Positions 48,629-64,000 of a DNA stretch of 64,000 nucleotides are shown here, one piece after another. The notes beneath the pieces were generated by a model that worked only from the letters and a program-made list of their open reading frames with translations, did no database searches and was not told the DNA's origin. This stretch comes from Aquabacterium sp. OR-4 (GTDB lineage: Bacteria; Pseudomonadota; Gammaproteobacteria; Burkholderiales; Burkholderiaceae_C): positions 992,001 to 1,056,000 of the forward strand of contig NZ_JAOCQD020000002.1 in the NCBI RefSeq assembly GCF_025290835.2. The letters are read 5' to 3'. A program made the translations under genes and the position numbers. Each line of letters starts with the position of its first letter. Position 1 is the first letter of the stretch.

Positions 48629-50518
48629 TCAGCCGCCCGGTTCAGCCACCTGGATCTCGGCCCGCGCACCACCCGGCCAGTGCCGTGCCGCGCTGCGCGC
48701 CAGCACCTCGGGCAAGGCCCGCTCGGTGCTGAAGCTGATGCGGGCCAGCACCAGATCGCCGGCCATCGGGCGCGCTGCCTGCAGCAGGGTCAATGCAGCG
48801 TCGCTCAGGTCGTCGTCGAGCAGACCGGCGGCCTGCAAGGCCGCGGGGTCGACCTGCAGCACCAGCACATGCGCGTCAAATCGCCGGCCATCGCGGCTGG
48901 CCACTGGTGCATGGCCGCTCCAGGCCTGCAGCACGCCGGGCAGCTGGGCGCACAGATCGTCAAGCGCCGACAAGGCATGCGCGGGCAGGCGCGGCGGCGC
49001 CAGGCCGGCCGATTCGATGCAGGCATGCGCCTGCTGCAAGGCCTGGGCGCGGCGCTCGCCGGCGCGGCTGAGCCGGGCGGCCAGGTGCTGCATGGCCGGG
49101 CCGTCGGCCTGCGCCTGGGCCTCGGCCAGTGCCGCGGCGCGTGCCGACCAGGCCAGGGCCGGCTCGGCCTGCACCGCCGCCTCCAGCAGCGCCAGCGCCG
49201 CGGCCACGCGCGCGGCCGGCGCCCCGGGCTGCGCCAGCCAGGCCAGGGCCAGCGCATGGTCGCGCTGCGGGTCGGCGCCGCCCAATGCCGCCAGCGCCTC
49301 CAGCATGGCCAGGGCCGGCCCGGGCTGACCCAGCTGCTGCAGGGCCTCGGCATGGGCCAGGCTGGCAGGCAGCCCCGCCGGCCGCGCCTGGCCATCGAGC
49401 CAGGCGCGCAGCCGGGCCAGCCACAGGTGGCGCGCCAGCGTGCACCAGTGCATCGCGGCCATGGCCCGCTGGGCACAGCCCGCCAGCGCACCCGGCCAGT
49501 CGGCCAGCCAGGCCGCGCCGGCACAGTGGCCCGGCGCCAGGGCCGGCAGCGCCAGGGTCTCGGGCCCGGCCAGGCCCAGCGCGGCGGCCCGCTGCGGCAG
49601 GCTGGGGTGGGTGTCGTTCGCACCGGGGGGCCGGCCCCAGGCGGCGGCGCGCTCACCGGCGTCGGGGGCCCGGGCCAGCAGTGCCGGCAGGTGTTCGTGC
49701 CAGCCCAGCACCATGGCGTCGGCGCGCTGGCTCAGCAGGCCCGGGTAGACGTGGTGCCGCCAGGCCTGCATGCGGCCCTCGGCCACGCGCAGCAGGGCCA
49801 GCGCGGCCACCACGTCGGCCGGAGACACCAGGCGTGCGGCGTCAGCATCGGCCTCGTATTCGCAGCGCCGCGAATGGGCGAAGGCCAGGCGCGAGAACCA
49901 TGGCGCGAAGCGGCGTGCAAACCAGCTCACCAGTCGATCGAAGGCCGAACCATCGCCCGGCGGCGCCTGCTGCAACGCCAGCCAGCCCAGCCGGGCCCGG
50001 TAGACCCACTGGCCCAGGCTGCCGTGGCGGCGCGACAGGTGCCCCAGCTCATGGGCCAGCACGGCACGGGCCTGGGCCTCGTTCAGCACCGCCAGCAGCG
50101 GCACGCCGATCACCAGGCTGTGGCGCACACGGCGCGGCCAGCGCCGCGCCCCGCCGTCCACCACGCCGGCATTGAACTCGCTGCCCAGCAGCACCTGCGC
50201 CACCGGGCGGCAGTCGAGCTGGCGCTGGATCTCGTCAAGCCGGGCAAACAGCCCCGGCGCCTGTGCACGCGTGATCGGCTCGCCGGCCAGCGGCTGCAGC
50301 GGCATCAGCGCCCAGCCCAGCAGCAGCAGCACCGCCACGGCCAGCCAGGCGGCCCAGGGCTGCTGCCACCACAGGGCGCCCAGCAGCAGAAAAAACGCCC
50401 AGGGCGCCAGCGCCAGCGCGCGCCAGGCCAGATCGGCGGCCACGGCCAGCGCGCCCAGCACCCAGGCCGGCGGGCCCGCCGCGGCGGCCGCCGGTGTGTC
50501 GTGACCGGCCTGCGGCAT
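48629..50518 (-). CDS. M48-family membrane metallopeptidase
   Basis: 629 residues. Two hydrophobic helices near the N-terminus (about residues 20-70), then the peptidase domain with HELGH at 156-160 and the downstream Glu in CEYEADADAARL. The rest (about residues 330-620) is an Ala-rich helical, TPR-like region (LAHAEALQQLGQPGPALAMLEALAALGG), unusual in length for HtpX-like proteins. Start chosen at the ATG of MPQAGHD with a strong Shine-Dalgarno (GGGAGG). Related to YcaL/BepA-type proteins by general design; role unknown. Confidence 0.85.
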   Translation of the reverse strand: MPQAGHDTPAAAAAGPPAWVLGALAVAADLAWRALALAPWAFFLLLGALWWQQPWAAWLAVAVLLLLGWALMPLQPLAGEPITRAQAPGLFARLDEIQRQLDCRPVAQVLLGSEFNAGVVDGGARRWPRRVRHSLVIGVPLLAVLNEAQARAVLAHELGHLSRRHGSLGQWVYRARLGWLALQQAPPGDGSAFDRLVSWFARRFAPWFSRLAFAHSRRCEYEADADAARLVSPADVVAALALLRVAEGRMQAWRHHVYPGLLSQRADAMVLGWHEHLPALLARAPDAGERAAAWGRPPGANDTHPSLPQRAAALGLAGPETLALPALAPGHCAGAAWLADWPGALAGCAQRAMAAMHWCTLARHLWLARLRAWLDGQARPAGLPASLAHAEALQQLGQPGPALAMLEALAALGGADPQRDHALALAWLAQPGAPAARVAAALALLEAAVQAEPALAWSARAAALAEAQAQADGPAMQHLAARLSRAGERRAQALQQAHACIESAGLAPPRLPAHALSALDDLCAQLPGVLQAWSGHAPVASRDGRRFDAHVLVLQVDPAALQAAGLLDDDLSDAALTLLQAARPMAGDLVLARISFSTERALPEVLARSAARHWPGGARAEIQVAEPGG

Positions 50519-50612
50519 GTGATCACCCTCCCTTGCTGTGCTGCGGCCCGGATTCGCGCCGGGGCCTGCGGCGATGATAGGCAGCCCAGGCCACGCCACT
50601 ACCATCGCGCCC

Positions 50613-51542
50613 ATGAACACCCCCAACCTGCCGATCAGCCTGATCGGCGCCCCCACCGACATCGGCGCCGGCAGCCGTGGCGCCAGCATGGGCCCCGAGG
50701 CCTTGCGCGTGGCGCAGCTGCAGCCCACGCTCGAAAGCCATGGCCTCGAGGTGGTCGACCGCGGCAACCTCAGCGGCCCCTACAACCCCTGGCAACCGCC
50801 GGTGGACGGCTACCGCCACCTGGCCGAGGTGACGGCCTGGAACCGGGCGGTGCACGACGCCGTGCTGGCCGAGCTGTCGCTGGGGCGGCTGCCCATCCTG
50901 CTGGGTGGCGACCACTGCCTGGGCATCGGTTCGATCAGCGCCGTGGCGCGCCACTGCCGCGAGGCCGGCAAGAAGCTGCGCGTGCTGTGGCTGGACGCCC
51001 ATGCCGACTTCAACACCGACGCGCTGACGCCCAGCGGCAACATCCACGGCATGCCGGTGGCCTGCCTGTGCGGCCACGGCCCGCAGCAGCTGATCGAGAT
51101 CGGCGGCATGGTGCCGGCCATCCAGCCGAAGTGGGTGCGGCAGATCGGCATCCGCTCGGTCGATGCCGGTGAAAAGCGCTTCGTGCACCAGGTGGGTCTG
51201 GAGGTGTTCGACATGCGCTTCATCGACGAACACGGCATGCGCCACGCCATGGCGCTGGCCCTGGCCACACTGGACGCCAATACCCACCTGCATGTGAGCT
51301 TTGACGTCGACTTTCTCGACCCCGGCATCGCCCCGGGCGTGGGCACCACGGTGCGCGGCGGCCCCAGCTACCGCGAGGCCCAGCTGTGCATGGAGATGAT
51401 CGCCGACACCGGCCGCCTGGCCAGCCTGGACGTGATGGAGCTGAACCCGGCCCTCGACCTGCGCAACCAGACCGCCGAGCTGGCGGTCGACCTGATCGAG
51501 AGCCTGTTCGGCAAGAGCACGCTGATGCGTGCTCCGGGCTGA
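50613..51542 (+). CDS. rocF: Arginase
   Basis: 309 residues. Hydrolyses arginine to ornithine and urea at a binuclear manganese site. Metal ligands are in LGGDHCLG, WLDAHADFNT and SFDVDFLDP; GNIHGMPVA and the late glutamate in VMELNPALD are also present. The N-terminus (ISLIGAPTDIGAGSRGASMGPEALR) is typical. Start at the ATG of MNTPNLP. Stands alone, divergent from the M48 gene. The last seven codons are repeated just after the stop. Confidence 0.95.
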   Translation: MNTPNLPISLIGAPTDIGAGSRGASMGPEALRVAQLQPTLESHGLEVVDRGNLSGPYNPWQPPVDGYRHLAEVTAWNRAVHDAVLAELSLGRLPILLGGDHCLGIGSISAVARHCREAGKKLRVLWLDAHADFNTDALTPSGNIHGMPVACLCGHGPQQLIEIGGMVPAIQPKWVRQIGIRSVDAGEKRFVHQVGLEVFDMRFIDEHGMRHAMALALATLDANTHLHVSFDVDFLDPGIAPGVGTTVRGGPSYREAQLCMEMIADTGRLASLDVMELNPALDLRNQTAELAVDLIESLFGKSTLMRAPG

Positions 51543-51677: not shown

Positions 51678-53990
51678 ATGGTGAGCCGCCGCCGCATCCT
51701 GCTGGGCACGCTGGCGGCCAGCGGCGCGCTGGTGGTGGGCTGGGGCGCGCTGCCGCCGCGCCAGCGCCTCACCGGCAGCCAGCCGCTGCCCGCCGCCGCG
51801 GGCGAGCAGGCCTTCAACGGCTGGGTCAAGATCGGCCGCGACGACGCGGTGAGCATCGTGCTGGCGCGCAGCGAGATGGGCCAGGGCGTGAGCACCGCGC
51901 TGGCCATGGTGCTGGCCGACGAGCTGGACGCCGACTGGGCCCAGGTGCGCACCGAGATGGCCCCGGTGGACGCGATCTACAACAACCTGGCCACCGTGGT
52001 CGACGGCCTGCCCTTCCACCCCGACGACCAGGGCAGCCTCAAGCGCCTGGCCGGCTGGCTGACCGCCAAGACCATGCGCGAGGTCGGGCTGATGGTCACC
52101 GGCGGCTCGTCGAGCATCAAGGATCTGTGGCTGCCGATGCGCCAGGCCGGCGCCGCCGCCCGTGCCATGCTGGTGGCCGCCGCCGCCGCGCAGTGGGGCG
52201 TGCCGGCCGACGAGGTGCTGGTGCAGCGCGGCCTGGTGCTGCATGCGCGCTCGAAGCGCCAGCTGCGCTTTGGCGAGCTGGCCGAACGTGCCGCGGCGCT
52301 GCCGCTGCCCAAGGCGCCGGTGCTGAAGACGCCCAGCCAGTTCACGCTGATCGGCCGCACGCCGCCGCGGCGCGACGCCGCCGCCAAGCACGACGGCACG
52401 GCGCGCTTCGGGCTCGATGTCACGCCGGCGGGCCTGCTGTATGCGAGCCTGGTGATGAACCCGCAGCTCGGGGGTGGCCTGGGCGGCTTCGACGCCCGCG
52501 CGGCCCTGGCCCTGCCCGGCGTGAAGACGGTGGTGGCGGTGCCGGCGCTGCGCGGTGCCACCGCCGGTTATGCCGCGGTGGCCGACACGCCCTGGCATGC
52601 CATGCAGGCCGCGGCAGCCGTCCAGCCGCAATGGACCGACGGCCCGGCCGCCACGCTGGACAGCGCCGGCATCCGCCGCCAGCTGGGCGAGGCGCTCACG
52701 GCCGATGCCGGCTTTGCGTACCACACGGTCGGCGATGCCGAGCAGGCCTTGCAGAGCGCCAGCAAGACCCTGCAGGCCGAGTACCACGCGCCGCTGCTGG
52801 CCCATGCCACGCTGGAGCCGCAGAACTGCACCGTGCTGTTCCAGCCCGCGGCGCCTGGCTCGGCCCCGGCCGACCAGGCCATCCAGGCCACCGTCTGGGC
52901 GCCCACCCAGGTGCCGGGCCTGGCGCGTTATGTGGCGGCCCAGGCGCTGGGGCTCGAGAGCGAGCAGGTGGCGGTGCAGGTCACGCTGCTGGGCGGCGGT
53001 TTCGGCCGGCGGCTGGATGTCGACTTCGTGGCCCAGGCCGCGGCCATTGCCCGCGCGCTGCCGGGCGTGCCGGTGCAGACCTTCTGGAGCCGAGCGCAGG
53101 ACAGCACCCATGATTTCTACCGCCCGCCCTGCGTGGCGCGCTACCGCGCCGGGCTCGATGCCCAGGGCCGCGTGACGGCCTGGCAGGCCGCGTCGGCCGG
53201 GCCGTCGATCGTGCACCAGTACCTGCAGCGGGTGTTCGGCCTGGCCGGCGCCGGCCCCGACAAGACCACCTGCGAAGGCGCCTTCGACCAGGCCTATGAG
53301 TGGCCGGCCGCGCGCATCAGCCACCACATCGTGGCGCTGCCGGTGCCGGTGGGTTTCTGGCGCTCGGTGGGGCATTCGCACCAGGCCTTCTTCAAGGAAA
53401 GCTTTCTTGACGAATGCGCCCACGCCGCGGGCCAGGACCCGCTGGCCTATCGCCTGGCCCTGCTGCAGCGGCACCCGCGCCATGCCGCGGTGCTGCGCCG
53501 TGCCGCCGAGCTGGGCCACTGGGGTGCACCGCCGGCCGCCGCTGCCGACGGCGCCAAGACCGCCCGCGGCCTGGCCCTGCACCAGAGCTTTGGCGCCATC
53601 GTGGCCCAGGTGGCCGAGGTCTCGCTCGACCCGGGCGATGCCCAACGCATCCGCGTGCACCGCGTGACGGCGGTGATCGACTGCGGCACCGTGGTGCACC
53701 CGGGCATCGTGCGCCAGCAGATGGAAAGCGCCATCGTCAACGGCCTGGGCGCGGCGCTGTACGGCGAGATCACGCTGCTCAAGGGCCAGGTGCAGCAGGC
53801 CAACTTTGACCAGCAGCCGCTGCTGCGCGGCGCCGACTGCCCGCAGATCCACACCGAGATCATCGCCAGCACCGAGCCGCCCGAAGGCGTGGGCGAGCCC
53901 GGCCTGCCGCCGCTGGCGCCGGCGGTGGCCAATGCCCTGTTCGCACTGACCGGCCAGCGCCTGCGCAGCCTGCCGCTGAAGCTGGCCTGA
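51678..53990 (+). CDS. Molybdenum hydroxylase large subunit (IorB-like)
   Basis: 770 residues, molybdopterin-cytosine-dinucleotide-binding subunit of the xanthine dehydrogenase family. A twin-arginine signal (SRRRILLGTLAASGALVVGWG) indicates Tat export or membrane association. Cofactor motifs are SEMGQGVSTALAMVLADEL, LLGGGFGRRLDVDF and the C-terminal EGVGEPGLPPLAPAVANAL with the catalytic Glu. This matches isoquinoline 1-oxidoreductase-type aldehyde/N-heterocycle dehydrogenases. The iron-sulfur subunit follows 97 bases downstream. No FAD subunit, XdhC chaperone or cytochrome c gene is adjacent. Substrate unknown. Confidence 0.9.
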   Translation: MVSRRRILLGTLAASGALVVGWGALPPRQRLTGSQPLPAAAGEQAFNGWVKIGRDDAVSIVLARSEMGQGVSTALAMVLADELDADWAQVRTEMAPVDAIYNNLATVVDGLPFHPDDQGSLKRLAGWLTAKTMREVGLMVTGGSSSIKDLWLPMRQAGAAARAMLVAAAAAQWGVPADEVLVQRGLVLHARSKRQLRFGELAERAAALPLPKAPVLKTPSQFTLIGRTPPRRDAAAKHDGTARFGLDVTPAGLLYASLVMNPQLGGGLGGFDARAALALPGVKTVVAVPALRGATAGYAAVADTPWHAMQAAAAVQPQWTDGPAATLDSAGIRRQLGEALTADAGFAYHTVGDAEQALQSASKTLQAEYHAPLLAHATLEPQNCTVLFQPAAPGSAPADQAIQATVWAPTQVPGLARYVAAQALGLESEQVAVQVTLLGGGFGRRLDVDFVAQAAAIARALPGVPVQTFWSRAQDSTHDFYRPPCVARYRAGLDAQGRVTAWQAASAGPSIVHQYLQRVFGLAGAGPDKTTCEGAFDQAYEWPAARISHHIVALPVPVGFWRSVGHSHQAFFKESFLDECAHAAGQDPLAYRLALLQRHPRHAAVLRRAAELGHWGAPPAAAADGAKTARGLALHQSFGAIVAQVAEVSLDPGDAQRIRVHRVTAVIDCGTVVHPGIVRQQMESAIVNGLGAALYGEITLLKGQVQQANFDQQPLLRGADCPQIHTEIIASTEPPEGVGEPGLPPLAPAVANALFALTGQRLRSLPLKLA

Positions 53991-54004
53991 TGCCCATGCG
54001 CCGC

Positions 54005-54065
54005 CACGTCGCTTCGCCTGTGCCCCCCGAGGGGCCATTCAGACCCTTGGGGCAGCCCGGCGGCC
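54005..54065. repeat. Dispersed intergenic palindromic repeat, copy 2
   Basis: Between the two molybdenum-hydroxylase genes. CGTCGCTTCG, CCCCCCGAGGGG, ATTCAG, CCCTTGGGG and a CCCGGCGG end follow the same order as the copy at 9740-9803. Related GC palindromes without the full set lie near 14750 and 33785. Confidence 0.55.
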
Positions 54066-54087
54066 CTGCAGCCCGGAAAGCCCCAAC

Positions 54088-54573
54088 ATGACCACCTCGC
54101 TCCATCTGAACGGCCAGCCGGTCAGCGTGCAGGCCGAATCCGAGACCCCGCTGCTGTGGGTGCTGCGCGGCGAGCTCAAGCTCACCGGCACCAAGTTCGG
54201 CTGCGGCATCGCGCAGTGCGGCGCCTGCACCGTGCTGCTGGGCGATGCCCAGGGCGCGGCGGTGGGCCAGCCGGTGCGCAGCTGCAGCCTGCCGCTGTCG
54301 GCCGTGGGCGAGCAGACCGTGGCCACCATCGAAGGCCTGAAGGGCCGTGAGATCGACGCGCTGCGCGCCGCCTGGGCCGCACTCGACGTGGTGCAGTGCG
54401 GCTGGTGCCAGAGCGGCCAGCTGCTGGCCGCCGCCGCACTGCTGGCCCGCACGCCGCAGCCCAGCGACGCGCAGATCGACGCAGCGATGAACGGCAACCT
54501 GTGCCGCTGCGGCACCTACCCGCGCATCCGGGCGGCCATCCACCAGGCCGGCCAGGCGCTGGCCAAGGGCTGA
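54088..54573 (+). CDS. Molybdenum hydroxylase (2Fe-2S) subunit (IorA-like)
   Basis: 161 residues. Plant-type ferredoxin domain with CGIAQCGACTVLL and a later Cys in VRSCSLP; second helical domain with CGWCQSGQ and NLCRCGTYPRI. These give two 2Fe-2S centres that pass electrons from the molybdenum site. No signal peptide; probably co-exported with the Tat-tagged large subunit. In most related loci this gene comes first. Confidence 0.93.
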   Translation: MTTSLHLNGQPVSVQAESETPLLWVLRGELKLTGTKFGCGIAQCGACTVLLGDAQGAAVGQPVRSCSLPLSAVGEQTVATIEGLKGREIDALRAAWAALDVVQCGWCQSGQLLAAAALLARTPQPSDAQIDAAMNGNLCRCGTYPRIRAAIHQAGQALAKG

Positions 54574-54609: not shown

Positions 54610-54628
54610 AACGCAACTACGTTGCGTT
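54610..54628. promoter_or_regulatory. Palindromic operator (Zur-like), site A
   Basis: AACGCAACTACGTTGCGTT, a perfect 8-3-8 inverted repeat 39 bases before the start of the PEP-CTERM gene. Counted from 54611, 21 of 29 bases match site B at 59578, including a downstream CATGC. Because the gene it precedes resembles a Zur-repressed family, I infer a zinc-uptake-regulator box. Confidence 0.65.
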
Positions 54629-54667
54629 TAACATGCCACTCCGCTTGTTTCTTGAAGGAGTGTTCGC

Positions 54668-55555
54668 ATGGCGTTCCCGTTTGTTATCCAGGCCCGGCTG
54701 CCGGCCCTCGGCCCGCTGTGGCGGCTGACCGCACTGGCCTGCGCGGCCTGGGCCTGCAGTGCACCGGCGCAGGCTGCCGTGCGGGCGGCCGATGGCATTG
54801 GCTACTACATCGCTGTGGACAGCCTGGCCACCGTGGCCAGTGGCAGCTTCGCCGGCCTGGCCAACCCCAATGCCGGCCGGCTGACCCTGTTGTTCGACCA
54901 TGGCAACCACTTTCATGGCATCGGGGCCTACAGCCTCGGCGGCAGCAGCAGCGCGCCGCTGGTGCAGGACACCAACAGCAACAACCGCCTGCCCGAGACC
55001 TACACCCGCGTGTCGCCGCAGACCAGCGCCATCACGCTGCAGGCCGGCAGCGGCGCCTACAGCGGCTACTGGACCAGCCTGGGCGTGCCGGCCAGCGACC
55101 CGACCCACGAGTACGCGCTGCTGGGCATGGCCGGCATCCAGTCCCTGGCCGGGCTGGGGGCCGAGGCCGAGGTGTTGCGCAACAGCAGCGCCCAGCGCTG
55201 GAACGCCGCGCCGGCGGATGTGCAGGTCGGCCTGCGGCTGTTGAGCGCGACGCCCGGCCTGCAGTTCACCCTGGACGGCACGGCGGGCCATGCCTTTGCC
55301 GCCAGCGACACCGTGGCGCTGGGCAGCCTGGACAGCCTGGACGCGCTGCCGGTGGCCCAGGTGCTGATGGGCGCCGCGGCCGGCGTCTACACCGCCCAGT
55401 TCCAGCTGCTGCAGCTGGGTGGCAATGGCGCGGTGCTGGATGGCGGACGCTTTTATCTGGATGTGCAGGTGCCGGCCGTGCCGGAACCGCAGGCCGCCCT
55501 GCTGCTGGCCTTGGGGCTGGCCGGCCTGGCCTGGCGTCGCCGCGCGGCACACTGA
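54668..55555 (+). CDS. PEP-CTERM protein, All3515-like (Zur-repressed family)
   Basis: 295-residue exported surface protein. Signal peptide to about residue 36 (SAPAQA). The mature part has YYIAVDSLATVASGSFAGLANPNAGRLTLLF, HGNHFHGIGAYS, LPETYTR and GIQSLAGLG, which I recognise as the family annotated as all3515-type Zur-repressed PEP-CTERM proteins. The C-terminal sorting tag is VPEPQAAL, a hydrophobic helix and WRRR, for exosortase processing. The His-rich HGNHFH could bind zinc. Good Shine-Dalgarno (AAGGAG). The operator just upstream fits zinc control. Function unknown beyond that. Confidence 0.82.
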   Translation: MAFPFVIQARLPALGPLWRLTALACAAWACSAPAQAAVRAADGIGYYIAVDSLATVASGSFAGLANPNAGRLTLLFDHGNHFHGIGAYSLGGSSSAPLVQDTNSNNRLPETYTRVSPQTSAITLQAGSGAYSGYWTSLGVPASDPTHEYALLGMAGIQSLAGLGAEAEVLRNSSAQRWNAAPADVQVGLRLLSATPGLQFTLDGTAGHAFAASDTVALGSLDSLDALPVAQVLMGAAAGVYTAQFQLLQLGGNGAVLDGGRFYLDVQVPAVPEPQAALLLALGLAGLAWRRRAAH

Positions 55556-55570
55556 GGCATCACCCGGGCG

Positions 55571-58500
55571 CTACCAGGCGGCCCAGGGCGGCCGCGGTGG
55601 CGCCTGCCACGGCGATGGCGGGCGACGCCGCAGCGTCGCCTGCGCGGCTGCGCTGCAGCTGAGCGGGGTGCCCAGGCGCCACTGGCCGTCCTCGCAGAGG
55701 GCGGTGGCGCGGCCCAGGCTGGGGCTGCTGCCGTCGTCCAGCATGCGTTGCTGGCCCGATTCGGCCGCCAAGACCTCGGCCTCACAGCCCACCTCGCCCA
55801 CCCGCCAGCTCAGGCGCTGCGCGCTGCAGGCGCGTGGCGGCACCGGCTCGCAACGCGCCGGGCCGGTGTCGGCCAGCAGCCATTGGCCGTCGTCGCAGCG
55901 CCACTGGGCCTCGCCCAGCGCCGGCCGGTCCGCATCGACCAGGCTGACGCTGACGCCGGCCGCGCTGGCCGGGGCATTGGCCTCGCACTGCACGGCGCTG
56001 TGGGCGCCGCGGCCGGCCCAGCGCAGCAGGCGCGCCGCGCAGGCCGCCGGCACATGGCGCTCGCAGCGTGCGCTGTGCGGCGCGCTCCAGGCGCCGTTGC
56101 TGCAGTTGAACAAGGCGCTGCCCAGCGTGGGCCTGGCCTCGTCCACGGCCAGCGCCTGGGCGCCGTGGGCGGTGCTGGCCGGGCGGCCCTGGCACTGCTC
56201 GGTGCCCACGCGCCAGTCCAGGTCCTGCGCGACGCAGGGGCGCATCGGCGGCTGCGAGCAGGCCGCGTCCTGTGGGCCCTGCCACTGGCCGTCCACGCAG
56301 CTGAACGCCGCCTGGCCCAGCCCGCTGTCGAGCTGGCTGCTCACGGCCAGGCGCGTGCCCGAGGCGCTGGCCGCCAGGCTGGCCGCGCAGTAGGCGCCGC
56401 CCAGCTGCCAGGCCACCGACTGCGCCGCGCAGGCCGCCGGCGCCTGCGCCACGCAGCTGGCCGCGCCAGGCGCCGACCAGGCACCGTCGCGGCAGGAGAA
56501 CAGTGCCGAGCCCAGCGTCGGCCGGCCCAGGTCGGTGAGCACCACCGATTGCTCCGAGGCCGTGGTGGCCACGGCGGCCTCGCAACGCTCGGCACCCGCC
56601 TGCCAACCCAGGGTCTGGGCCAGACAGGGGCGCGGCGGCGGCGGCAGTGTGCAGGTGGCGGCGCCGGGGCCGCTCCAGGCCCCGTTGTCGCAGTGCCAGC
56701 TGGCCACCCCCACGCCGGCCGTGCCCTGGGCATTGCCATGGGCCGTGGCGGTGGCGCTGCGGCCCGATGCCGCGCCGGGCAGCAGGCCCTCGCAGCGCTG
56801 CTCGCCCACCTGCCAGGCCTGGGCCTGGGCGCTGCAGGCGGCGGGCGGCGGGGCCTCGCACTGTGCCGACTGCGGCACGCTCCATTGCCCGTCGTGGCAC
56901 TCGAAGCGCGCGCTGCCCAGCATCGGTGCCAGCGCGGCCAGCAGCGCGCCGCTGCCCGCGGCCGTGCCCGGCGCATCGCCGGTGCAGCGCTGGCCGCCCA
57001 CCTGCCAGGTCAGGCGCGCCGCCACGCAAGGCTCGGGCGCGTGGGTGCAGCGCGGTGCCTGCGTGCTGTGCCACTGGCCATCCAGGCATTGCAGGCTGGC
57101 GGCACCGGTGGCCGGGGCCAGCCGATCTTCCAGCAGCAGGGCCGTGCCTGCCGCAGCCGCCGGCGCACCGGCACTGCACTGCGCCGCGCCTTCGCTCCAG
57201 CTGAGGCTTTGTGCCGCACAGTCGGCCGCAGGCGCCAGGCTGCAGCTGGCCTGCGACGGGCCCTCGAAGCGGCCGTTGCTGCAGCTGAAGCTGGCGCTGC
57301 CGGTGGCCGGGCCGCTGGCATCCACCACCTGCAGCGTGCTGCCCGAGGCCTGGGCCGCCACCGTGGCCGTGCATTGCAGCGTGCCCACACGCCAGCTCAG
57401 GGCCTGCGCGGCGCAGGGCTGGGGCTCGCTGCAGCTGAGCTGGCCAGCCACCAGCTGCCAGCTGCCGGCCTCGCAGCGCGCCAGCGCCTGGCCCAGCGTG
57501 GGCGCACCGCTGTCGCTGAGCAGCAGCTCACGCGACGAAGGCGCGCCTGGCGCCGTGGCCTCGCAGCGGGCGTTGCCCACGCTCCAGCCCAGTGTGGCGG
57601 CGGCGCAGTCGGGGGGCGGTGGCAGCGCGCAGCGGGTGGCCGTGGCTGGGCTCCACTGGCCGGCCTCGCAGCGCAGCGTGGCCTCGCCCAGGTAGGGTGC
57701 GCGGGTGTTGCCCAGGGTCAGCTGCACGCCGTCGTCGCTGGCCGGCGCGGGCGCCTCGCAGGCCAGGCCGGCCACGCTCCAGGCGATGGTCTGGGCCGCG
57801 CAGCGCGGCGGCGGCGGCAGCGCACAGCTGGCCTGCTGCGGCGCCGACCATTGGCCGGCCTGGCAGCTGAAGCCGGCCGTGCCCACGGCCGGCGCGTCGC
57901 GGTCGGTGAGCTGAAGCTGCTGGCCCGGTTCGGTTTCAGCCACGCTGGCGCTGCAGGTGGCATCGGCCACGCTCCAGCGCAGCGTGGCGGCAGCGCAGGG
58001 CGGTGGCGGCGGATTGACCCGCGCCAGGATGGCCTGCTGCATCTGCGCCTCGCTGATGCCGCGCTCGAAGGCCACCATCAACGGCTCGGACGGCAGGTAT
58101 TTGGGCTGGCCGTCCACCGTGGCGCTGGACCACAGCGACAAGGTCACCAGATAGGCCCCGGCCGGCGGCTCGGCCGCAGCGCCGGCGCTGATCTTCCAGT
58201 CAAGATGGGCGTGGAAGGCGCCGGTGCGCGAGGCGGCGTCGATGAAGGCCGCCAGCGGGCCGCTGACGCCGTCGCGGCCAAAGCGCGTGCCACCGGCCCA
58301 ATGCTCGTACTGCGTGCGCCAGACGGCGGGGTTGTCCTCGTAGCCCAGCAGCACCTCGGCCGGCACGCCGCCAAACAGCGCCAGCTGCACGCCCGCCGGC
58401 GCCGGGCCCCAGCGGCCGCTGGCCGGGTTCCAGTACAGCAGCGTGCCATGGGCCTGGAAGTGGATGACCTCGTTGCGGGCGAAGGTGCCCGCAAAGGCCT

Positions 58501-58804
58501 GGAAGCCGGGATCGTCGGTCTGCAGGGGCCCGCCTTCGAGATCGCCGAACCAGCCCGGAAAGATCCGGTAGCCGGTGGCCGCATCGATCGGCAGCACGCC
58601 GTTCAGACCGGGGTCGCCATAGAAGGCGGTGAGGATGCGGCTGCCGGCCACCGGGCCGGCGCTGGTGCGCAGCTCGACATCGAAGTGCACCGCCTGCGCT
58701 GCCGTGGTGGCCAGGCCCAGACACCAGCCCAGGCACCAGCCCAGACACCAGCCCGGCAGCGCGCCCCGGCAGGCCCGCAGCCCGCGCCACAGCACAGCGG
58801 CCAT
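55571..58804 (-). CDS. Secreted protein with twelve four-Cys repeats
   Basis: 1077 residues; not a family I can name. A signal peptide with the tandem GWCLGWCLGWCLG is followed by an N-terminal domain (about residues 40-260) paralogous to the PEP-CTERM protein encoded just upstream (shared FGDLEGGP-x-x-TDDPGF, AHLDW, AYLV-x-L, MVAFERG). Residues 270-1050 are twelve repeats of about 65 residues, each with four cysteines: C-x-A-x-x-L-x-W-x-V-G-x-x-x-C, then P-x-L-G-x-A-x-F-x-C, then G-x-W-x-x-P and C. The second half recalls sushi/CCP modules. Pro-rich linkers join the units. No PEP-CTERM tag or other anchor; the C-terminus is Arg/Pro-rich. Second gene of the minus-strand arm of the operator B promoter, 28 bases after its partner. 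Confidence 0.85.
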   Translation of the reverse strand: MAAVLWRGLRACRGALPGWCLGWCLGWCLGLATTAAQAVHFDVELRTSAGPVAGSRILTAFYGDPGLNGVLPIDAATGYRIFPGWFGDLEGGPLQTDDPGFQAFAGTFARNEVIHFQAHGTLLYWNPASGRWGPAPAGVQLALFGGVPAEVLLGYEDNPAVWRTQYEHWAGGTRFGRDGVSGPLAAFIDAASRTGAFHAHLDWKISAGAAAEPPAGAYLVTLSLWSSATVDGQPKYLPSEPLMVAFERGISEAQMQQAILARVNPPPPPCAAATLRWSVADATCSASVAETEPGQQLQLTDRDAPAVGTAGFSCQAGQWSAPQQASCALPPPPRCAAQTIAWSVAGLACEAPAPASDDGVQLTLGNTRAPYLGEATLRCEAGQWSPATATRCALPPPPDCAAATLGWSVGNARCEATAPGAPSSRELLLSDSGAPTLGQALARCEAGSWQLVAGQLSCSEPQPCAAQALSWRVGTLQCTATVAAQASGSTLQVVDASGPATGSASFSCSNGRFEGPSQASCSLAPAADCAAQSLSWSEGAAQCSAGAPAAAAGTALLLEDRLAPATGAASLQCLDGQWHSTQAPRCTHAPEPCVAARLTWQVGGQRCTGDAPGTAAGSGALLAALAPMLGSARFECHDGQWSVPQSAQCEAPPPAACSAQAQAWQVGEQRCEGLLPGAASGRSATATAHGNAQGTAGVGVASWHCDNGAWSGPGAATCTLPPPPRPCLAQTLGWQAGAERCEAAVATTASEQSVVLTDLGRPTLGSALFSCRDGAWSAPGAASCVAQAPAACAAQSVAWQLGGAYCAASLAASASGTRLAVSSQLDSGLGQAAFSCVDGQWQGPQDAACSQPPMRPCVAQDLDWRVGTEQCQGRPASTAHGAQALAVDEARPTLGSALFNCSNGAWSAPHSARCERHVPAACAARLLRWAGRGAHSAVQCEANAPASAAGVSVSLVDADRPALGEAQWRCDDGQWLLADTGPARCEPVPPRACSAQRLSWRVGEVGCEAEVLAAESGQQRMLDDGSSPSLGRATALCEDGQWRLGTPLSCSAAAQATLRRRPPSPWQAPPRPPWAAW
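55655..57997 (-). repeat. Twelve tandem coding repeats of about 195 bp
   Basis: Coding repeats of the Cys-rich protein, from the first Cys of unit 1 to the last Cys of unit 12. The units diverge at DNA level but keep the four Cys codons and the W and G codons, so the array is old rather than freshly expanded. Confidence 0.85.
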
Positions 58805-58832
58805 CAAGTTTGTGCCGGGCGCGAGGGCAGGC

Positions 58833-59528
58833 TCAGCGCGCGCCGCGGCGAAGGCGCAGCAGGCCCAGGCCGGCCAGGCCGAGCGCCAGCATCAGCGCGG
58901 CCTGGGGCTCGGGCACGGCGCTCAGGCTGTGCACCGCGGCCTCGAAGCCCGCTTCGTCCATGCCCCGGTTGAAGGCCATGTAGAAGGGCGTGGAGTCCTG
59001 CAGGCTGCCGGCCTCGAGCTGCAGCTGCACCAGGTAGGCCGCCACGGCCACGCGGCCGCTGCCGGTGAGGGTGAAGTCCAGGTGCTCGTGGATCTTGCCG
59101 GTGCTGCCGGCCTGGCCGATCAGCCCGGTCACGTCGCCGCTCACACCCGCGGCCTGCCACAGCGTCTCTTCGCCCAGATTGCCGGTCAGGCGCAGGCTCA
59201 GCGCGGCCGGCGCGGCCGTCCAGGCGCTGCCGTTCCAGGCCAGCAGGCTGCCGATGGCGCGGTAGTTGACGAGGGTGCCGGCGGCAAACGAAGCGTCCTC
59301 GCTGTCGAAGCCCGGGTCGTCGGTGCTGTAGGGGCCACCGGCCAGATCGCCGAGGTCGCCCTCGAAGATCCGAGCGCCGTCGGCGTGCACCCCATGCCCG
59401 CCCAGCACCACCAGGCGGCCAGCCGTGACGGCCACCTCGATATCACCCTCGTGCAGATGCTGCGCCTGCGCCGGCAGCGCGGCGGCCAGCGCCAGCGCGA
59501 GCGCCGGAATCCAGTGAGCGAACTTCAT
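58833..59528 (-). CDS. PEP-CTERM surface protein
   Basis: 231 residues. The ATG with GGAGG seven bases upstream is chosen over the ATG at 59555. Signal peptide to AQA (about residue 23). The mature part begins HLHEGDIEV and holds GARIFEGDLGDLAGGPYSTDDPGFDS, KIHEHLDF and FYMAFNRGMDEAGFEAAV; the end is VPEPQAAL plus a hydrophobic helix and RLRRG, an exosortase tag. His/Asp/Glu clusters suggest metal binding. First gene of the minus arm facing the TonB receptor over operator B. Paralogous to the N-terminal domain of the Cys-repeat protein downstream. Function unknown. Confidence 0.82.
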   Translation of the reverse strand: MKFAHWIPALALALAAALPAQAQHLHEGDIEVAVTAGRLVVLGGHGVHADGARIFEGDLGDLAGGPYSTDDPGFDSEDASFAAGTLVNYRAIGSLLAWNGSAWTAAPAALSLRLTGNLGEETLWQAAGVSGDVTGLIGQAGSTGKIHEHLDFTLTGSGRVAVAAYLVQLQLEAGSLQDSTPFYMAFNRGMDEAGFEAAVHSLSAVPEPQAALMLALGLAGLGLLRLRRGAR

Positions 59529-59577
59529 GAAACCTCCACCAATGAACATAGACATCCCCTGATCGGGGCTCCTGCAG

Positions 59578-59594
59578 ACGCAACAGTATTGCGT
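59578..59594. promoter_or_regulatory. Palindromic operator (Zur-like), site B
   Basis: ACGCAACAGTATTGCGT, an inverted repeat with ACGCAA/TTGCGT arms in the 105-base divergent gap between the PEP-CTERM gene and the TonB receptor. It lies 49 bases from the minus-strand ATG and 39 from the plus-strand ATG, placed to control both. It matches site A at 54610. Confidence 0.65.
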
Positions 59595-59633
59595 ATTTCA
59601 TGCAACACTGTGTCGTCTTACCCCCTTGTTCGA

Positions 59634-61955
59634 ATGGCAATCGACCTTCTTTGTGCCGCGCCCTTTGCGCGCTGTGTCATGGCCTTTCCGACCGCGCTGA
59701 TGGCCGCGCTGATGGCCGCTCCGGCCGCCGCCCAGGTCGTTGCCCAGATGGCCGCTGCGGCGGCCGCCCAGGCGCTGCCCCCAGCGGCCGCCGCCTCGGC
59801 CGCCGCAGCGCCTGCGGCCGCGCAGCAGGTCACCATCGAGGGCCGGCGCGCGCCCGACGAGCTGGCGCCGCAAGGCCAGCTGCGCGGCACCGCGCTGCAG
59901 CGCGCGGTGTCGGCCACGCTGGGCGCCACGCTGGCCGACGAGCTGGGCGTGGCCAATGCCAGCTTCGGCCCCGGCGTGGGCCTGCCGATGGTGCGCGGGC
60001 AAGGAGGCTCGCGGCTGCGCACCCTGGTCAACGGCCTGGGCAGCAACGACGCGTCGACCGTCAGCGCCGACCACGGCGCGATGCTCGAATCGGCGCTGGC
60101 CGAGCGCGTGACCATCTGGCGCGGGCCGGCCACCATCCGCTTTGGTGGCGGCGCCATCGGTGGTGCGGTGGAGGTCGACGACGGCCGCGTTCCCACCCAG
60201 CGCCACGAGCAGCTGCGCAGCCGGGGCCAGGCCCGCCTGGCCTGGGGCGACCAGCAATTGCTGGTGCTCAGCGCCGACGGGCCCGCGCCGGCCGGGCTGC
60301 CGCTGGCCTGGCATGCCGATCTGCATGGCCGGCGCCAGGGCCTGGTGCCGATCCGCGGCGCGGCGGTGGACGAAGCGGCCGTGCTGCGCCAATACCAGCT
60401 GCGCACCCAGCGCAACAGCTGGGGCCACATCGACAACAGCCAGTCGGCCAGCGAAGGCGGCGCGCTGGGCCTGGCCTGGCTGGGCGAGGCCGGCCAGGCC
60501 GGGCTGGCGCTGTCGCGGCTGAGGCAGGTGTACGGCATTCCGCCCGGCGGGCACAGCCACGCCCACACCCCGGCACCGGGCGAGGTGGCCAGCGGCGGCG
60601 AGGTGCGCATCGATGCCCGCCAGCAACGCCTGGAGCTGCGCGCCGACCTCGACCTCACGCAGCTGCCACCGGCCGTGGCCCATGCCGGCGCCGGCCAGCT
60701 GCAGCTGCGCGCCAGCGCCAGCCGCTATGGCCATGACGAGCGCGAGGGCCCGCGCCTGTCCACCACCTTCCGCAACGATGTCGATGAGCTCCGCCTCGAA
60801 TGGCAGCACCGCTGGTGGCGCCAATGGCCCGGCACGCTGGGGCTGCAATGGCAGCAGCGCGAGTTTGCGGCGCTGGGCGAGGAGGCCTTCGTGCCCCGCA
60901 GCCGCGGCCGCATGGTGGGCCTGTTTGCGCTGCAGCGCTGGCAGGCCGCACCCTGGCACCTGGAGGCCGGCTGGCGCACCGACCACCAGCGCTGGCAGCC
61001 CGATGCCAGCTTCAGCGTGCTGGGCCAGCCGCGCGCCATGCCGGCGCGGCGCTTCTGGCCACGCAGCGGCTCGCTGGCCCTGCAGCGCGACTACGCCTGG
61101 CACGCCCCGGCCAGCGCCGCCACCGCCGATCCCATCGCCCCGATGCCCGCCCCCTGGGCGCAGGGCAGCTTCACGCTCACGCACTGGCGCGTGGGCCGCG
61201 CACCCGACGTGCAGGAGCTGTACGCCGGCGGCCCGCACATCGCCACCCGCAGCTTCGACCTGGGCAACCCGGGCCTGGTCAACGAAACACTGCAGGCCTG
61301 GGATCTGGCCTGGCAGCACCAGCACGGCGCCTGGCAGTGGCGCGCCAATGCCTATGTCTACCGCAGCGCGCACTACATCTACCAGCGCACGCTGGGCTGG
61401 TTCTACGAAGCCGAGGAGCAGCAGGCGCAGATCGTCTGCACCCGGCTCGACCGCTGCCTGCCGGCCACCAAGCGCGAGCAGTCGCCGGCCCGCTTCTTTG
61501 GCCACGAACTGGAGCTGGCACGCCAGTTCAGGCCCGATGACAACCTGCGCCTGCGCCTGGCCGTGCAGGGCGATGCCGTGCGCGGCCGCCTGGACGACGG
61601 CAGCGACGTGCCGCGCCTGCCGCCCAGGCGCTGGGCCCTGGTGCTGGACGCCGCACACGGCGCCTGGACAGCCCAGTGGCGCCTGACCCGAGGGCTGGCG
61701 CAAGACCGCCCGGGCCGCAACGAGCAGCCCACGCCGGGCTACCTGAGGCTGGATGCCAGCCTGCACTGGACGGCCCCGGCCGCTGACGGCGTCGGCGCCG
61801 GCGCCGCCCAGCCCGGCCGGCCTGCGCCGTGGACGGCCTTTGCCGTGGCGCGCAACCTGGGCAACCAGAGCATCCGCAGCAGCACCTCGTTTCTGCGGCT
61901 GATGGCGCCCGAACCCGGCCGCAGCCTCGAGCTGGGCCTGGAGTGGCGGCTGTGA
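59634..61955 (+). CDS. TonB-dependent receptor, ZnuD-like
   Basis: 773 residues, outer-membrane barrel with N-terminal plug. Signal region MAFPTALMAALMAAPAAAQ; an internal ATG at 59679 is an alternative start. The plug has VGLPMVRGQGGSRLRTLVNGLGSNDASTVSADHG, then ERVTIWRGPATIRFGGGAIGGAVEVDDGRVP, the pattern of the ZnuD zinc-receptor group. HSHAH at 307-311 lies in a likely surface loop, which fits zinc capture. A Cys pair (VCTRLDRCLP) sits in another loop. The C-terminal barrel strand ends in LELGLEWRL. No TonB/ExbBD or ABC transporter genes are in the window. Confidence 0.88.
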   Translation: MAIDLLCAAPFARCVMAFPTALMAALMAAPAAAQVVAQMAAAAAAQALPPAAAASAAAAPAAAQQVTIEGRRAPDELAPQGQLRGTALQRAVSATLGATLADELGVANASFGPGVGLPMVRGQGGSRLRTLVNGLGSNDASTVSADHGAMLESALAERVTIWRGPATIRFGGGAIGGAVEVDDGRVPTQRHEQLRSRGQARLAWGDQQLLVLSADGPAPAGLPLAWHADLHGRRQGLVPIRGAAVDEAAVLRQYQLRTQRNSWGHIDNSQSASEGGALGLAWLGEAGQAGLALSRLRQVYGIPPGGHSHAHTPAPGEVASGGEVRIDARQQRLELRADLDLTQLPPAVAHAGAGQLQLRASASRYGHDEREGPRLSTTFRNDVDELRLEWQHRWWRQWPGTLGLQWQQREFAALGEEAFVPRSRGRMVGLFALQRWQAAPWHLEAGWRTDHQRWQPDASFSVLGQPRAMPARRFWPRSGSLALQRDYAWHAPASAATADPIAPMPAPWAQGSFTLTHWRVGRAPDVQELYAGGPHIATRSFDLGNPGLVNETLQAWDLAWQHQHGAWQWRANAYVYRSAHYIYQRTLGWFYEAEEQQAQIVCTRLDRCLPATKREQSPARFFGHELELARQFRPDDNLRLRLAVQGDAVRGRLDDGSDVPRLPPRRWALVLDAAHGAWTAQWRLTRGLAQDRPGRNEQPTPGYLRLDASLHWTAPAADGVGAGAAQPGRPAPWTAFAVARNLGNQSIRSSTSFLRLMAPEPGRSLELGLEWRL

Positions 61956-62017
61956 GGCGCCGGCCGGTGCCGGCCCTGCGGCTGGCTGCGCGGCTGCCCG
62001 CACGGCTCGCTGCAGTG

Positions 62018-64000
62018 ATGCCCACACTGCGGCCCGCCCTGCGGCCCGCCCTGCTGCCGGCACTGCTCGCCGCCGTGGTGGCCGGCTGCGGCGGCGGCAG
62101 CGACAGCGCGCCCGACAGCCTGGCCGCGCCCGACGCCCAGCAGCTCGACGGCGCGCCCTGCGGCGATTGCCGGCCTGGCGTGCTCAGCGGCCAGGCCGCC
62201 AGCGGGCAGCCGCTGGCCGACGCCGCGGTGCTGGCCGTGGCCGCCGATGGCCGCCGTGTTGAAGGCCGCACCGATGCGCAGGGCCGCTTCGCGCTCGGCG
62301 TGGGTTCGCCCGGCACCGCCTGGCTGCTGCAGGTGCGCGGCCAGGCCGGCGGCCGCGCAGTGACCTGGCATGCGCTGTGCCGCGGTGCCGAGGTGGGCAC
62401 CCGGCATGTCACCGTGACCGCCATCAGCGAGCTGGTGGCCGCGCAGGTGCTGGGCGGTCGTCCGGCCGAGCTGCTGCAGGCCGGCACGCTGGATCTGCTG
62501 CGCGTGGATGCCGACAGCCTGCGCCGCGCCGAAGCCCTGGCCGAGGCCGTGCTGCGCCCGCTGCTCGACGCCGCCGGCGTGGCGGCGGCCGTGGATCTGC
62601 GCGTCACCGCCTTCAGCACCGACCGCAGCGGCCTCGACCTGGTGCTCGAGCTGCTCGATGTGCAGCCCCATGGCGCGCAGGGCTACCGCCTGCGCCATGC
62701 CGGACAGCCCAGCGACGCCCCGGACCTGGTGCTCGAGCAGGCCCAGCAACTGGCACTGGCCGCCCCGCTGCCGGCCATGGCCGGCACGGCGGCGCGTCGG
62801 GCCGCCGACACCCTGGCCGAACTCGAGGCCCAGCTGCGGCAGTGGACCGCCTGGCTGGCGCCGGCCCGGCCCGACCGCCAGCAGCTGCTGGCCGAGCTGC
62901 CCGCCGGTTTTCGCGACGGCGGCCTGGACGCCAGCGGCTTTGTCGATCGCGTGCTGCTGCGCCAGGACCCGGCCGATGAAGGTGGCTGGCGCATGGCCGG
63001 CGCCCGCTGGAGCGCGCCACGCCTGCTGGCCCAGCCGGCGGCCGACCGTGCGCTGCTGCAATGGCAGGTCAGTCCGTCGGCGCCGCAGGCCGCCTACAGC
63101 GAGACCATGTGGTGGCAGCGGCACAACGGCCGCTGGCAGCCGCTGGGCGATGGCGCCATGGCGCGTGTGCAGTGGCGCGCACTGTCGGTGCTGGGCCCGC
63201 AGCCGCTGGCCGAGGCCGCCGTGCGTTCGCTGCCCGGCTTCCGCTGCCCGACCGGCTTCGACTGGCTGCCCGAGACCGACCTGGCCCAGCGCTGCCATCT
63301 GCTGCAGCCGGCGCTGGGCGGCGTGCTCGATGCCGGCCGGCCCGGTGACGGCCTGTTCGGCAGCCTGGCGCTGCACTGGTCGCTGAGCGCCGACCCCGCC
63401 CTGCGCCTGCAGGCCCAAGGCCAGCACAGCCAGCTGCTGGGCCAGCCCAGCCAGGGCGTGAGCCAGCACCTGGCCCTGCAGATCGACGCGCGGCGGGTCG
63501 ATGCACGCGCCCGCTCGGCACGCCTGTTCGGGGCGGGGCTGCCCGCCGACGGCGTGCTGCTGGTGCCACCGCCCCTGTGGGCCGGCCGGCCGCTGTGGCC
63601 GCACTGGGCCCTGGCCGATGCCGACGGACGCGCCCGCGACGACTGGCAGGCACTGCCGCTCGGCTGGTGCGACTGGGCCGCCGACACGGCCGCCCAGCGC
63701 CAATGCCAGGCCGACTGGGCCACGCTGGCACCCGGCCGGTCATGGCAACTGCGGTGGCTCGACGCCCAGGGCCAGACCCTGGGCGAGCAGGCGGTCACGC
63801 TGCCGCTGCTGCCGCGGCCACAGGCCCAGCTGCAGGCCGACCCGGGGCGCTGGTTCGCACGCTGGCAACCCACGCCGGCCAGCGACACCCTGGCGGCCCT
63901 GCCGGCCCTGAACGCCGTGCTCGACGACCGCCACGCCCAGGCCCTGGCGCTGCAGTGGCCGGCGCTGGCGCCTGCCGAGGCGGGCCTGCTGCCGGTGGAG
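62018..64000 (+). CDS. Large lipoprotein, 3'-truncated by window edge
   Basis: Open frame to the right edge, at least 661 residues; not a protein I recognise. The ATG gives an ideal lipoprotein signal (LLPALLAAVVAGC). A GTG at 61952 overlapping the receptor stop is in frame and would couple translation but give a very long n-region. After the lipid Cys come a CGDC pair and a carboxypeptidase-regulatory-like beta domain (LSGQAASGQPLADAAVLAVAADGRRVEGRTDAQGRFALGV). A helical region follows, then a long beta-rich part with many Trp and few scattered Cys. Lies directly downstream of the ZnuD-like receptor, so probably shares its promoter. Confidence 0.78.
   Translation, partial: MPTLRPALRPALLPALLAAVVAGCGGGSDSAPDSLAAPDAQQLDGAPCGDCRPGVLSGQAASGQPLADAAVLAVAADGRRVEGRTDAQGRFALGVGSPGTAWLLQVRGQAGGRAVTWHALCRGAEVGTRHVTVTAISELVAAQVLGGRPAELLQAGTLDLLRVDADSLRRAEALAEAVLRPLLDAAGVAAAVDLRVTAFSTDRSGLDLVLELLDVQPHGAQGYRLRHAGQPSDAPDLVLEQAQQLALAAPLPAMAGTAARRAADTLAELEAQLRQWTAWLAPARPDRQQLLAELPAGFRDGGLDASGFVDRVLLRQDPADEGGWRMAGARWSAPRLLAQPAADRALLQWQVSPSAPQAAYSETMWWQRHNGRWQPLGDGAMARVQWRALSVLGPQPLAEAAVRSLPGFRCPTGFDWLPETDLAQRCHLLQPALGGVLDAGRPGDGLFGSLALHWSLSADPALRLQAQGQHSQLLGQPSQGVSQHLALQIDARRVDARARSARLFGAGLPADGVLLVPPPLWAGRPLWPHWALADADGRARDDWQALPLGWCDWAADTAAQRQCQADWATLAPGRSWQLRWLDAQGQTLGEQAVTLPLLPRPQAQLQADPGRWFARWQPTPASDTLAALPALNAVLDDRHAQALALQWPALAPAEAGLLPVE

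Follow-up and report, generated by a model that had tools for sequence, protein, structure and literature searches.

A predicted Zur-controlled zinc-capture cluster of the ZepA kind in Aquabacterium sp. OR-4, with a ZnuD-like receptor and an unnamed family of exported proteins

We analyzed a 64,000-nucleotide stretch of the Aquabacterium sp. OR-4 genome (G000:C2:992001-1056000), referred to here as the window. The genome comprises 6,634,285 bp in seven contigs and is rated 99.99% complete. Toward its 3' end, the window carries a cluster of genes for exported proteins that begins with a homologue of ZepA (All3515), the Zur-repressed zinc exoprotein of Anabaena, whose homologues from other phyla behaved similarly in a zinc assay (PMC10957091, PLoS Biol 2024). 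This study concerns that cluster, the two palindromes found in its promoters and the regulator encoded at its end. The features are as follows; all gene coordinates were verified by translation.

54610-54628: operator 1, a predicted Zur box 5' of zepA; a perfect 8-3-8 palindrome, AACGCAAC-TAC-GTTGCGTT
54668-55555, plus strand: zepA, 295 amino acids (aa), exported, with a PEP-CTERM tail; ZepA/All3515 homologue
55571-58807, minus strand: Cys-repeat gene, 3' of PEP2; 1078 aa from a TTG codon with an ATG immediately after it
58833-59555, minus strand: PEP2, 240 aa, exported, unnamed family, C-terminal VPEP sorting tail
59578-59594: operator 2, ACGCAACAGTATTGCGT, a predicted Zur box in the divergent PEP2/receptor promoter
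59600-59616: degenerate copy of operator 2, ATGCAACACTGTGTCGT, with three mismatches; weak by itself
59634-61955, plus strand: ZnuD-like TonB-dependent receptor, 773 aa
62018-64270, plus strand: lipoprotein gene, 750 aa, lipobox-like LLAAVVAGC; runs past the window end (64000)
64390-64902 in window numbering (G000:C2:1056390-1056902), plus strand: FURW, FUR-family regulator, 170 aa, TTG start

A first-pass annotation of the window had proposed two near-identical palindromes bracketing a cluster of exported proteins, and had called PEP-CTERM genes, a Cys-repeat protein, a ZnuD-like receptor and a lipoprotein. Both palindromes are where it placed them, and its protein calls were upheld. As a correction, the cluster extends past the window: the gene for the lipoprotein continues to 64270 and is followed on the same strand, after 119 bp, by FURW, which starts 390 bp beyond the window end.

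Operator 1 (AACGCAACTACGTTGCGTT) ends 39 bp 5' of the zepA ATG (54668), and operator 2 sits between the divergent starts at 59555 (minus) and 59634 (plus). Within the window, exact ACGCAACNNNRTTGCGT was found at these two positions only. When the full-arm pattern ACGCAACNNNGTTGCGT (ACGCAAC-N3-GTTGCGT) was searched with up to one mismatch, the operators were the sole places in the whole 6.63-Mb genome. The Markov expectation (first order, window composition) is approximately 0.04 sites per genome, a description rather than a test because the pattern was derived from the sites. The pattern CGCAAYNNNRTTGCG added two places, both intragenic, and at up to three mismatches to ACGCAACNNNGTTGCGT there were 138 places, versus 284 for the backwards-read pattern. 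The looser core GCAAYNNNRTTGC occurred at 13 genome sites (reversed control, 7; Markov estimate, approximately 34); thus, the core alone is uninformative, and the full arms are the unusual part. Seven of these sites lie in called genes (one overlaps the first codons), two are more than 400 bp from any called gene, and two are the operators. Another lies 17 bp before a gene that resembles those for MarR/OhrR-type regulators. The last (G000:C4:60764-60776, L062), with the sequence GCAACAACGTTGC, coincides with the beginning of a contig-4 gene for a TonB-dependent receptor and is a possible additional target. On the genome-wide pattern counts and the Markov estimate, we rejected the idea that the palindromes are chance occurrences or repeats. 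The tally of the 13 core sites led us also to reject the box as the mark of a large zinc regulon in this genome.

The zepA product matched the ZepA model NF040463 over its full length (profile positions 1-227) at 217.3 bits (cut-off, 75) and the PEP-CTERM model PF07589 at 27.1 bits (cut-off, 20.7). The zinc-site motif described for ZepA, H-X2-9-H-F/Y-H (PMC10957091), is present as H78-G-N-H81-F-H83, and its histidines are invariant in 12/12 aligned sequences. The genome encodes two exosortases. By score, His motif, PEP-CTERM tail and exosortases, the protein is a member of the ZepA family, and zinc binding is predicted on that basis. In published assays, ZepA homologues were zinc specific (PMC10957091). 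This homology supports the suggestion, already made in the first-pass annotation, that the cluster captures zinc.

The product of the gene divergent from PEP2 contains the plug and barrel domains of TonB-dependent receptors (PF07715 and PF00593). The closest solved structure for its family profile is ZnuD (4rdr; E = 9.6e-106), and it scored 218.5 bits against the ZnuD model NF038289, for which the cut-off is 950. Further inspection revealed a His stretch, GGHSHAH (H309 and H311), together with a GPH motif (H535) and a Cys pair (C602/C608), all invariant in six sequences. By analogy with ZnuD, GGHSHAH presumably forms a surface loop. The earlier call of a ZnuD-like receptor holds for overall resemblance, for plug and barrel and for the His stretch; by the curated cut-off, the protein is not ZnuD. 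The outer-membrane receptor of ZepA and its mode of metal delivery are stated to be unknown in the ZepA paper (PMC10957091), and the receptor described here is a concrete candidate for the missing component.

The Cys-repeat protein begins with a domain of the same family as PEP2, as judged from alignments (A1 and A5) and a profile. The PEP2 profile matched the Cys-repeat protein at 193.4 bits over frame residues 62-304, with an HxHLDW motif. Outside the PEP-CTERM tail, the family had no recurrent match in Pfam or NCBIfam and is without a model in either library. PEP2 residues H35, D38, H156, H158 and D160 are conserved; across 42 aligned members, D38, H156 and H158 are invariant, D160 is present in 90% and H35 in 74%. 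PEP-CTERM was matched at E <= 0.1 in 41 of the 42. We rejected the possibility that PEP2 is a divergent ZepA, as a profile comparison aligned only columns 168-249, which comprise the PEP-CTERM tail and its flank. A solved structure resembling PEP2 by sequence was likewise rejected (best matches, E = 0.37 or worse).

The distribution of PEP2 follows that of ZepA. In an order-wide survey of 399 genomes, ZepA was present in 12 and a full PEP2 domain in at least 14, with at least 11 genomes common to both; PEP2 was counted only for domain-spanning matches of at least 98 bits. PEP2 was found in at least 11/12 ZepA genomes and at least 3/387 others (Fisher p = 5e-18, kinship ignored). An additional 118 genomes matched the profile weakly; among the matches listed, only its C-terminal part was involved. 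In all 14 PEP2 genomes a PEP2 gene adjoins a receptor like that of the window, and one of these receptors is truncated by a contig end. We also inspected 80 named zepA loci, split manually by title into 39 from Pseudomonadota and 41 others, some of the latter being metagenome-assembled genomes (MAGs) whose phylum is not in the title. Two PEP2 genes and the receptor lay within the fetched stretch in 20 of the 39; many contigs in the named set end early. The loci from the order search and the named collection overlap (for example, L041/L116 and L045/L112), so their counts are not to be summed.

In the Cys-repeat protein, the PEP2 domain is followed by 48 cysteines in 12 four-Cys repeats and then by a SPW..PP..PW C-terminal tail, which replaces PEP-CTERM. 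Neither Pfam nor NCBIfam gave a match to the protein at E up to 0.01. Of 27 proteins of this second (HxH-DW) type, 14 end in a PEP motif, and others have near variants, such as VPEA. Cys repeats and a PW..PW tail together with a PEP2 domain were found in the window protein and nine database relatives; the tail was present in 9/9 repeat relatives with the domain and in 0/3 repeat proteins without it. In Aquincola (L105) it follows a Pro-Ala linker, and L108 carries a form of it too. A PW..P...PW tail thus takes the place of PEP-CTERM in some second-type proteins (55571-58807, P0048-P0055, P0057, L105 and L108), after spacers as different as a Pro-Ala linker and 12 Cys repeats, and it is possibly a new sorting or docking signal. 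The idea that the repeats match a family in the local copy of Pfam was rejected for P0047, P0048 and P0050, for which no match was obtained at E up to 0.1, although the protein database tags the four-Cys repeat of these three proteins as PF27521. Homologues of the lipoprotein were found at only 4 of 101 loci searched (L105, L107, L109 and L111; Aquincola, two Aquabacterium and a Rubrivivax MAG), beside the receptor. Our guess is that the PW tail docks on this lipoprotein.

One locus joins the components in a single polypeptide. In a MAG (L104:2223-8660; G005, contig 1), a single open 2145-aa frame runs from a PEP2 domain through the repeats and barrel of an autotransporter to a complete ZnuD-like receptor whose N-terminal linker is repeated about three times. 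If it is not an assembly error, this fusion would be direct evidence that the PEP2 domain and the receptor cooperate at the surface. These data bear on a different reading of the cluster, in which ZepA and the box form a Zur-regulated zinc scavenger and PEP2, the Cys-repeat protein and the receptor serve some other surface role, such as adhesion or biofilm formation, induced by zinc shortage. PEP-CTERM and Cys-repeat proteins often are matrix or surface proteins, and zinc binding by PEP2 is a prediction. The pairing of PEP2 with a ZnuD-like receptor in 14/14 genomes, its near-exclusive co-occurrence with ZepA, the invariant HxH with a conserved N-terminal His and the natural fusion all argue against a separate surface role, which we consider unlikely.

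The genome encodes three FUR proteins: a standard Fur (L001), a Zur-like protein on contig 1 (L002, here ZUR2) and FURW, whose match starts 516 bp past the window. FURW scored 34.4 bits against PF01475 (cut-off, 23.1), and the CxxC...CxxC structural zinc motif (C124, C127, C161 and C164) is invariant in 5/5 sequences. Its score against enterobacterial Zur, PRK11639, was 26.5 bits (cut-off, 167), this being a model for a distant lineage. FURW falls in a clade (support, 100/99) with the regulators of zepA loci in Aquincola, G005, G052 and Methylocucumis; several branches are long and the internal placement is unsure, and the clade profile (A4) excludes L178. All five FURW-clade loci (the window's own, L105, G005, G052 and L178) have a TGCAAC-type box, matching at least 10 of 12 letters, before zepA. 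The order receptor-lipoprotein-regulator is common to the window and Aquincola (L105).

Among 24 chosen genomes, FURW orthologues (at least 137 bits; next FUR match, 96.5) were present in 12/12 with ZepA and 5/12 without it. In its own genome, FURW has no zinc-uptake gene neighbours outside the cluster. Zinc-type genes were found at 8 of 14 fetched orthologue loci: znuC-znuB-znuA-cobW-cobW at L199, zrgA-cobW-dksA at L197, a ZIP gene at L206 and cobW at L202, L203, L204, L209 and L210. Boxes of at least 11/12 letters numbered 11, in 7 of the 14 loci, compared with 0.2 in shuffled sequence and none for a control pattern. At 10/12 letters or more there were 19, compared with 3.7 and 1, a score of 10/12 somewhere in a 10-kb locus being weak by itself.

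In other genomes, the box reads TGCAAC-N3-GTTGCA. Exact TGCAACNNNGTTGCA occurred at 13 sites in 22 chosen genomes (backwards control, 1). Inspection of their contexts placed 10 of the 13 at zepA, PEP2/receptor, FURW, FURW-dksA/cobW or ZIP zinc transporter genes, and one (L218) before a TonB receptor with no assigned substrate. In Aquincola tertiaricarbonis (G399, 6.3 Mb), the exact box occurs twice genome-wide, once upstream of zepA and once in the PEP2/receptor intergenic region, so that both sites are in the promoters that correspond to those of operators 1 and 2. CAAATGCAACTGAGTTGCATAAT occupies the operator 1 position there (L105), and the divergent PEP2/receptor promoter contains two boxes of this kind. 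Four genomes (G029, G284, G272 and G254) have zepA and the PEP2-receptor pair on different contigs, with boxes of at least 10/12 before both, which points to control in trans.

Comparison of 82 zepA promoters, after dropping rows with fewer than 150 upstream bases and duplicate promoters, indicated that different Zur-type boxes precede zepA in different lineages, because the matches split by lineage. Twenty-five promoters matched TGATAATNATTATCA at 12/14 or better, nearly all cyanobacterial by title, and six (four of them gammaproteobacterial) matched TGTTATANTATAACA equally well; we take these to be the Zur boxes of cyanobacteria and gammaproteobacteria, respectively. Twelve, mostly from Burkholderiales, matched the TGCAAC box at 10/12 or better. 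The respective counts in 1220 control windows, which were taken from the same loci and may include true sites, were 11, 4 and 28.

For two Desulfovibrio species, a 2004 study predicted TGCAAC-N3-GTTGCA upstream of znuABC-zur to be the Zur box (PMC545781). Compared with the consensus given there, ATGCAACNNNGTTGCAT, the window's ACGCAACNNNRTTGCGT has the same core with outer arms changed from T to C and from A to G. The Desulfovibrio box precedes znuABC-zur, whereas the window boxes precede zepA and PEP2/receptor, in a genome where ZnuA was not found. A literature search by subject for betaproteobacterial and Cupriavidus Zur motifs yielded nothing usable in the sources it reached, and the string GCAAC is absent from the main text of the COG0523 paper and of a Zur review.

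An alternative to FURW as the repressor is ZUR2, with FURW having a different role. On contig 1 (G000:C1:2090000-2101500, L026), ZUR2 lies with a siderophore-type TonB receptor, an ABC transporter of nickel/opine (metallophore) type and a protein resembling ZrgA (86 bits; cut-off, 185), and its operon is preceded by a palindrome, CGTTATTGATAACG, unlike those of the window. In 17 of the loci fetched, from Nitrosospira, Methyloversatilis, Aquabacterium and others, a ZUR2-clade gene lies close to zepA; two such genes are found in genomes with a TGCAAC box at the zepA cluster (L043 and L095). Several ZUR2-clade loci, however, carry GATAAY-N2-RTTATC, extended to TGATAA-N4-TTATCA (L041, L106, L117 and L120). 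Only 1 of the 17 (L043) has a TGCAAC box of at least 10/12 before zepA, and FURW has an orthologue in that genome as well (185 bits). The box before zepA at all five FURW-clade loci, and the different palindrome at the ZUR2 operon itself, make ZUR2 an improbable repressor of this cluster, slightly less credible than the separate surface role considered above. The Nitrosospira, Nitrosovibrio and Methyloversatilis loci (L106, L117 and L120) have the same cluster with a ZUR2-clade regulator nearby and the GATAAY-N2-RTTATC palindrome, a pattern that would fit an exchange of control over the zepA cluster between two Zur lineages.

The proposal of the first-pass annotation that a Zur-type repressor controls the cluster is well supported, on sequence grounds, by the FUR gene within the cluster, the zinc neighbours of its orthologues, the boxes of Aquincola, the other Zur-type boxes before zepA and the Desulfovibrio prediction. 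The repressor would most likely be FURW. The hypothesis that the metal is iron, haem, manganese or cobalt, and that the ZnuD-like receptor belongs to an iron or haem system under a FUR-family regulator, draws on the haem uptake described for ZnuD-type receptors besides zinc, on the receptor's score against haem/haemoglobin receptors (TIGR01786, 62.5 bits) and on apparent NiCoT-type and CDF transporter genes near two FURW orthologues (L200 and L201), but is very improbable given the zinc specificity of ZepA homologues noted above, the zinc-type genes at 8/14 orthologue loci and the separate, full-scoring iron Fur (L001; 190.9 bits, cut-off 146).

We therefore favor, with a probability of roughly 0.78, the reading of the cluster as a ZepA-type system for zinc capture that is self-contained and under Zur control. 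The genes and boxes, the extent to which they are conserved and the way they co-occur are observations. For the repression, zinc as its signal, zinc binding and hand-off, we infer the following scheme. When zinc is plentiful, FURW would bind both palindromes and shut three transcripts: zepA, PEP2 with the Cys-repeat gene, and receptor-lipoprotein-regulator. When zinc is scarce, these would be released. ZepA and the two PEP2-family proteins would be exported, cleaved at the PEP-CTERM tail if present, and either displayed at the outer surface or released from it. Their conserved His sites would gather zinc and pass it to the ZnuD-like receptor, which would carry it to the periplasm, powered by TonB. 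Inner-membrane import may proceed via ZIP proteins or the contig-1 ABC transporter; ZnuA (PF01297) was not found in the genome.

Within this scheme, we tentatively suggest, at somewhat below even odds, that the PEP2 family is a new class of surface zinc carrier. Together with its dedicated ZnuD-like receptor, it would supply the outer-membrane half missing from the ZepA system of Proteobacteria: zinc collected by ZepA would be relayed by the two PEP2-family proteins and imported by the receptor. The second PEP2 domain would be displayed in a lineage-specific manner, by PEP-CTERM, by a Cys-repeat stalk with a PW tail and partner lipoprotein, or, in one MAG, by an autotransporter-receptor fusion.

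Several observations weigh against these interpretations. The first-pass annotation had named, as support for its reading, genome-scan hits before zur/znuABC, zinc-independent ribosomal-protein paralogues or folE2, and this was not borne out: no additional good box precedes a zinc gene in the genome, and the cobW, ZIP and zrgA loci examined peak at 9/12 letters of TGCAAC-N3-GTTGCA (ribosomal-protein paralogues and folE2 were outside the scan). Zinc as the signal consequently rests on the orthologues and on ZepA. The regulon of FURW in this genome is probably confined to the cluster, so that a private zinc system would have a repressor of its own, and the failed scan fits the zinc reading for that reason. 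A promoter scan found no sigma-70-like promoter at operator 1 or operator 2, and ZUR2, as a second Zur-like regulator, could take part. Elsewhere, 2 of the 13 exact boxes (L213 and L215) are at nothing linkable to zinc, 6 of the 14 FURW-orthologue loci have no recognised zinc-type neighbour, and 4 lack a box of even 10 letters, including L197 and L203 despite their zrgA or cobW genes. The tail of the window's PEP2 scored 18.2 bits against PF07589 (cut-off, 20.7), with the VPEP motif, hydrophobic stretch and Arg cluster all present. The co-occurrence counts ignore kinship, and 5 of the 12 ZepA genomes come from one family; PEP2 scoring took at most six candidates per genome, so that a PEP2 gene could be missed in some. 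Finally, neither PEP2 nor this receptor was found at zepA loci outside Pseudomonadota (0/41), so the receptor cannot be general for ZepA.

Directly upstream of zepA (51678-54573) lie genes for a molybdopterin oxidoreductase large subunit and a 2Fe-2S subunit, with no visible link to zinc. Further upstream are an arginase-family gene (50595-51542) and an M48 peptidase gene (48629-50767).

The cluster resembles the ZepA/All3515 system of Anabaena in its signal peptide, PEP-CTERM tail, H-X2-9-H-F/Y-H motif and predicted Zur box (PMC10957091). The same paper notes TonB-dependent transporter (TBDT), other PEP-CTERM and FUR genes near zepA in Proteobacteria in general, so the zepA neighborhood as such was already known. 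Here, the receptor, two PEP2-family proteins, lipoprotein and regulator form one unit, and one PEP2 domain is extended by 12 Cys repeats and by a PW tail that replaces PEP-CTERM; the PEP2 family is not defined in the parts of that paper available to us. The receptor hand-off is that paper's hypothesis made concrete. It also cites azurin-OprC copper delivery, in which an extracellular carrier protein serves a TonB-dependent receptor; we claim no sequence relation to it.

The likeness to ZnuD of Neisseria (4rdr) extends to the best family match (NF038289), the best solved structure and a His-rich loop. The window receptor differs in its score, 218 bits against 950, and in being paired with PEP2 proteins; Neisseria is not known to carry ZepA. 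In the HasA-HasR system, a haemophore carrier serves a TonB-dependent receptor to deliver haem. No sequence relation is claimed here either, and a comparable hand-off in the window cluster is an inferred one. A literature search, with most subscription journals outside its reach, found no work pairing PEP-CTERM with ZnuD and only the ZepA paper for PEP-CTERM, Zur, TonB-dependent receptors and zinc combined.

For ZepA-type zinc delivery, the cluster names a receptor to test, a regulator and an operator. It also brings in a protein family, modelled in neither Pfam nor NCBIfam, that accompanies ZepA in at least 11 of the 12 ZepA genomes surveyed in the order. If the proposed scheme is true, bacteria would have a protein-based zinc counterpart of siderophore uptake, in which a single portable cassette encodes the surface carriers, the receptor matched to them and a private repressor.

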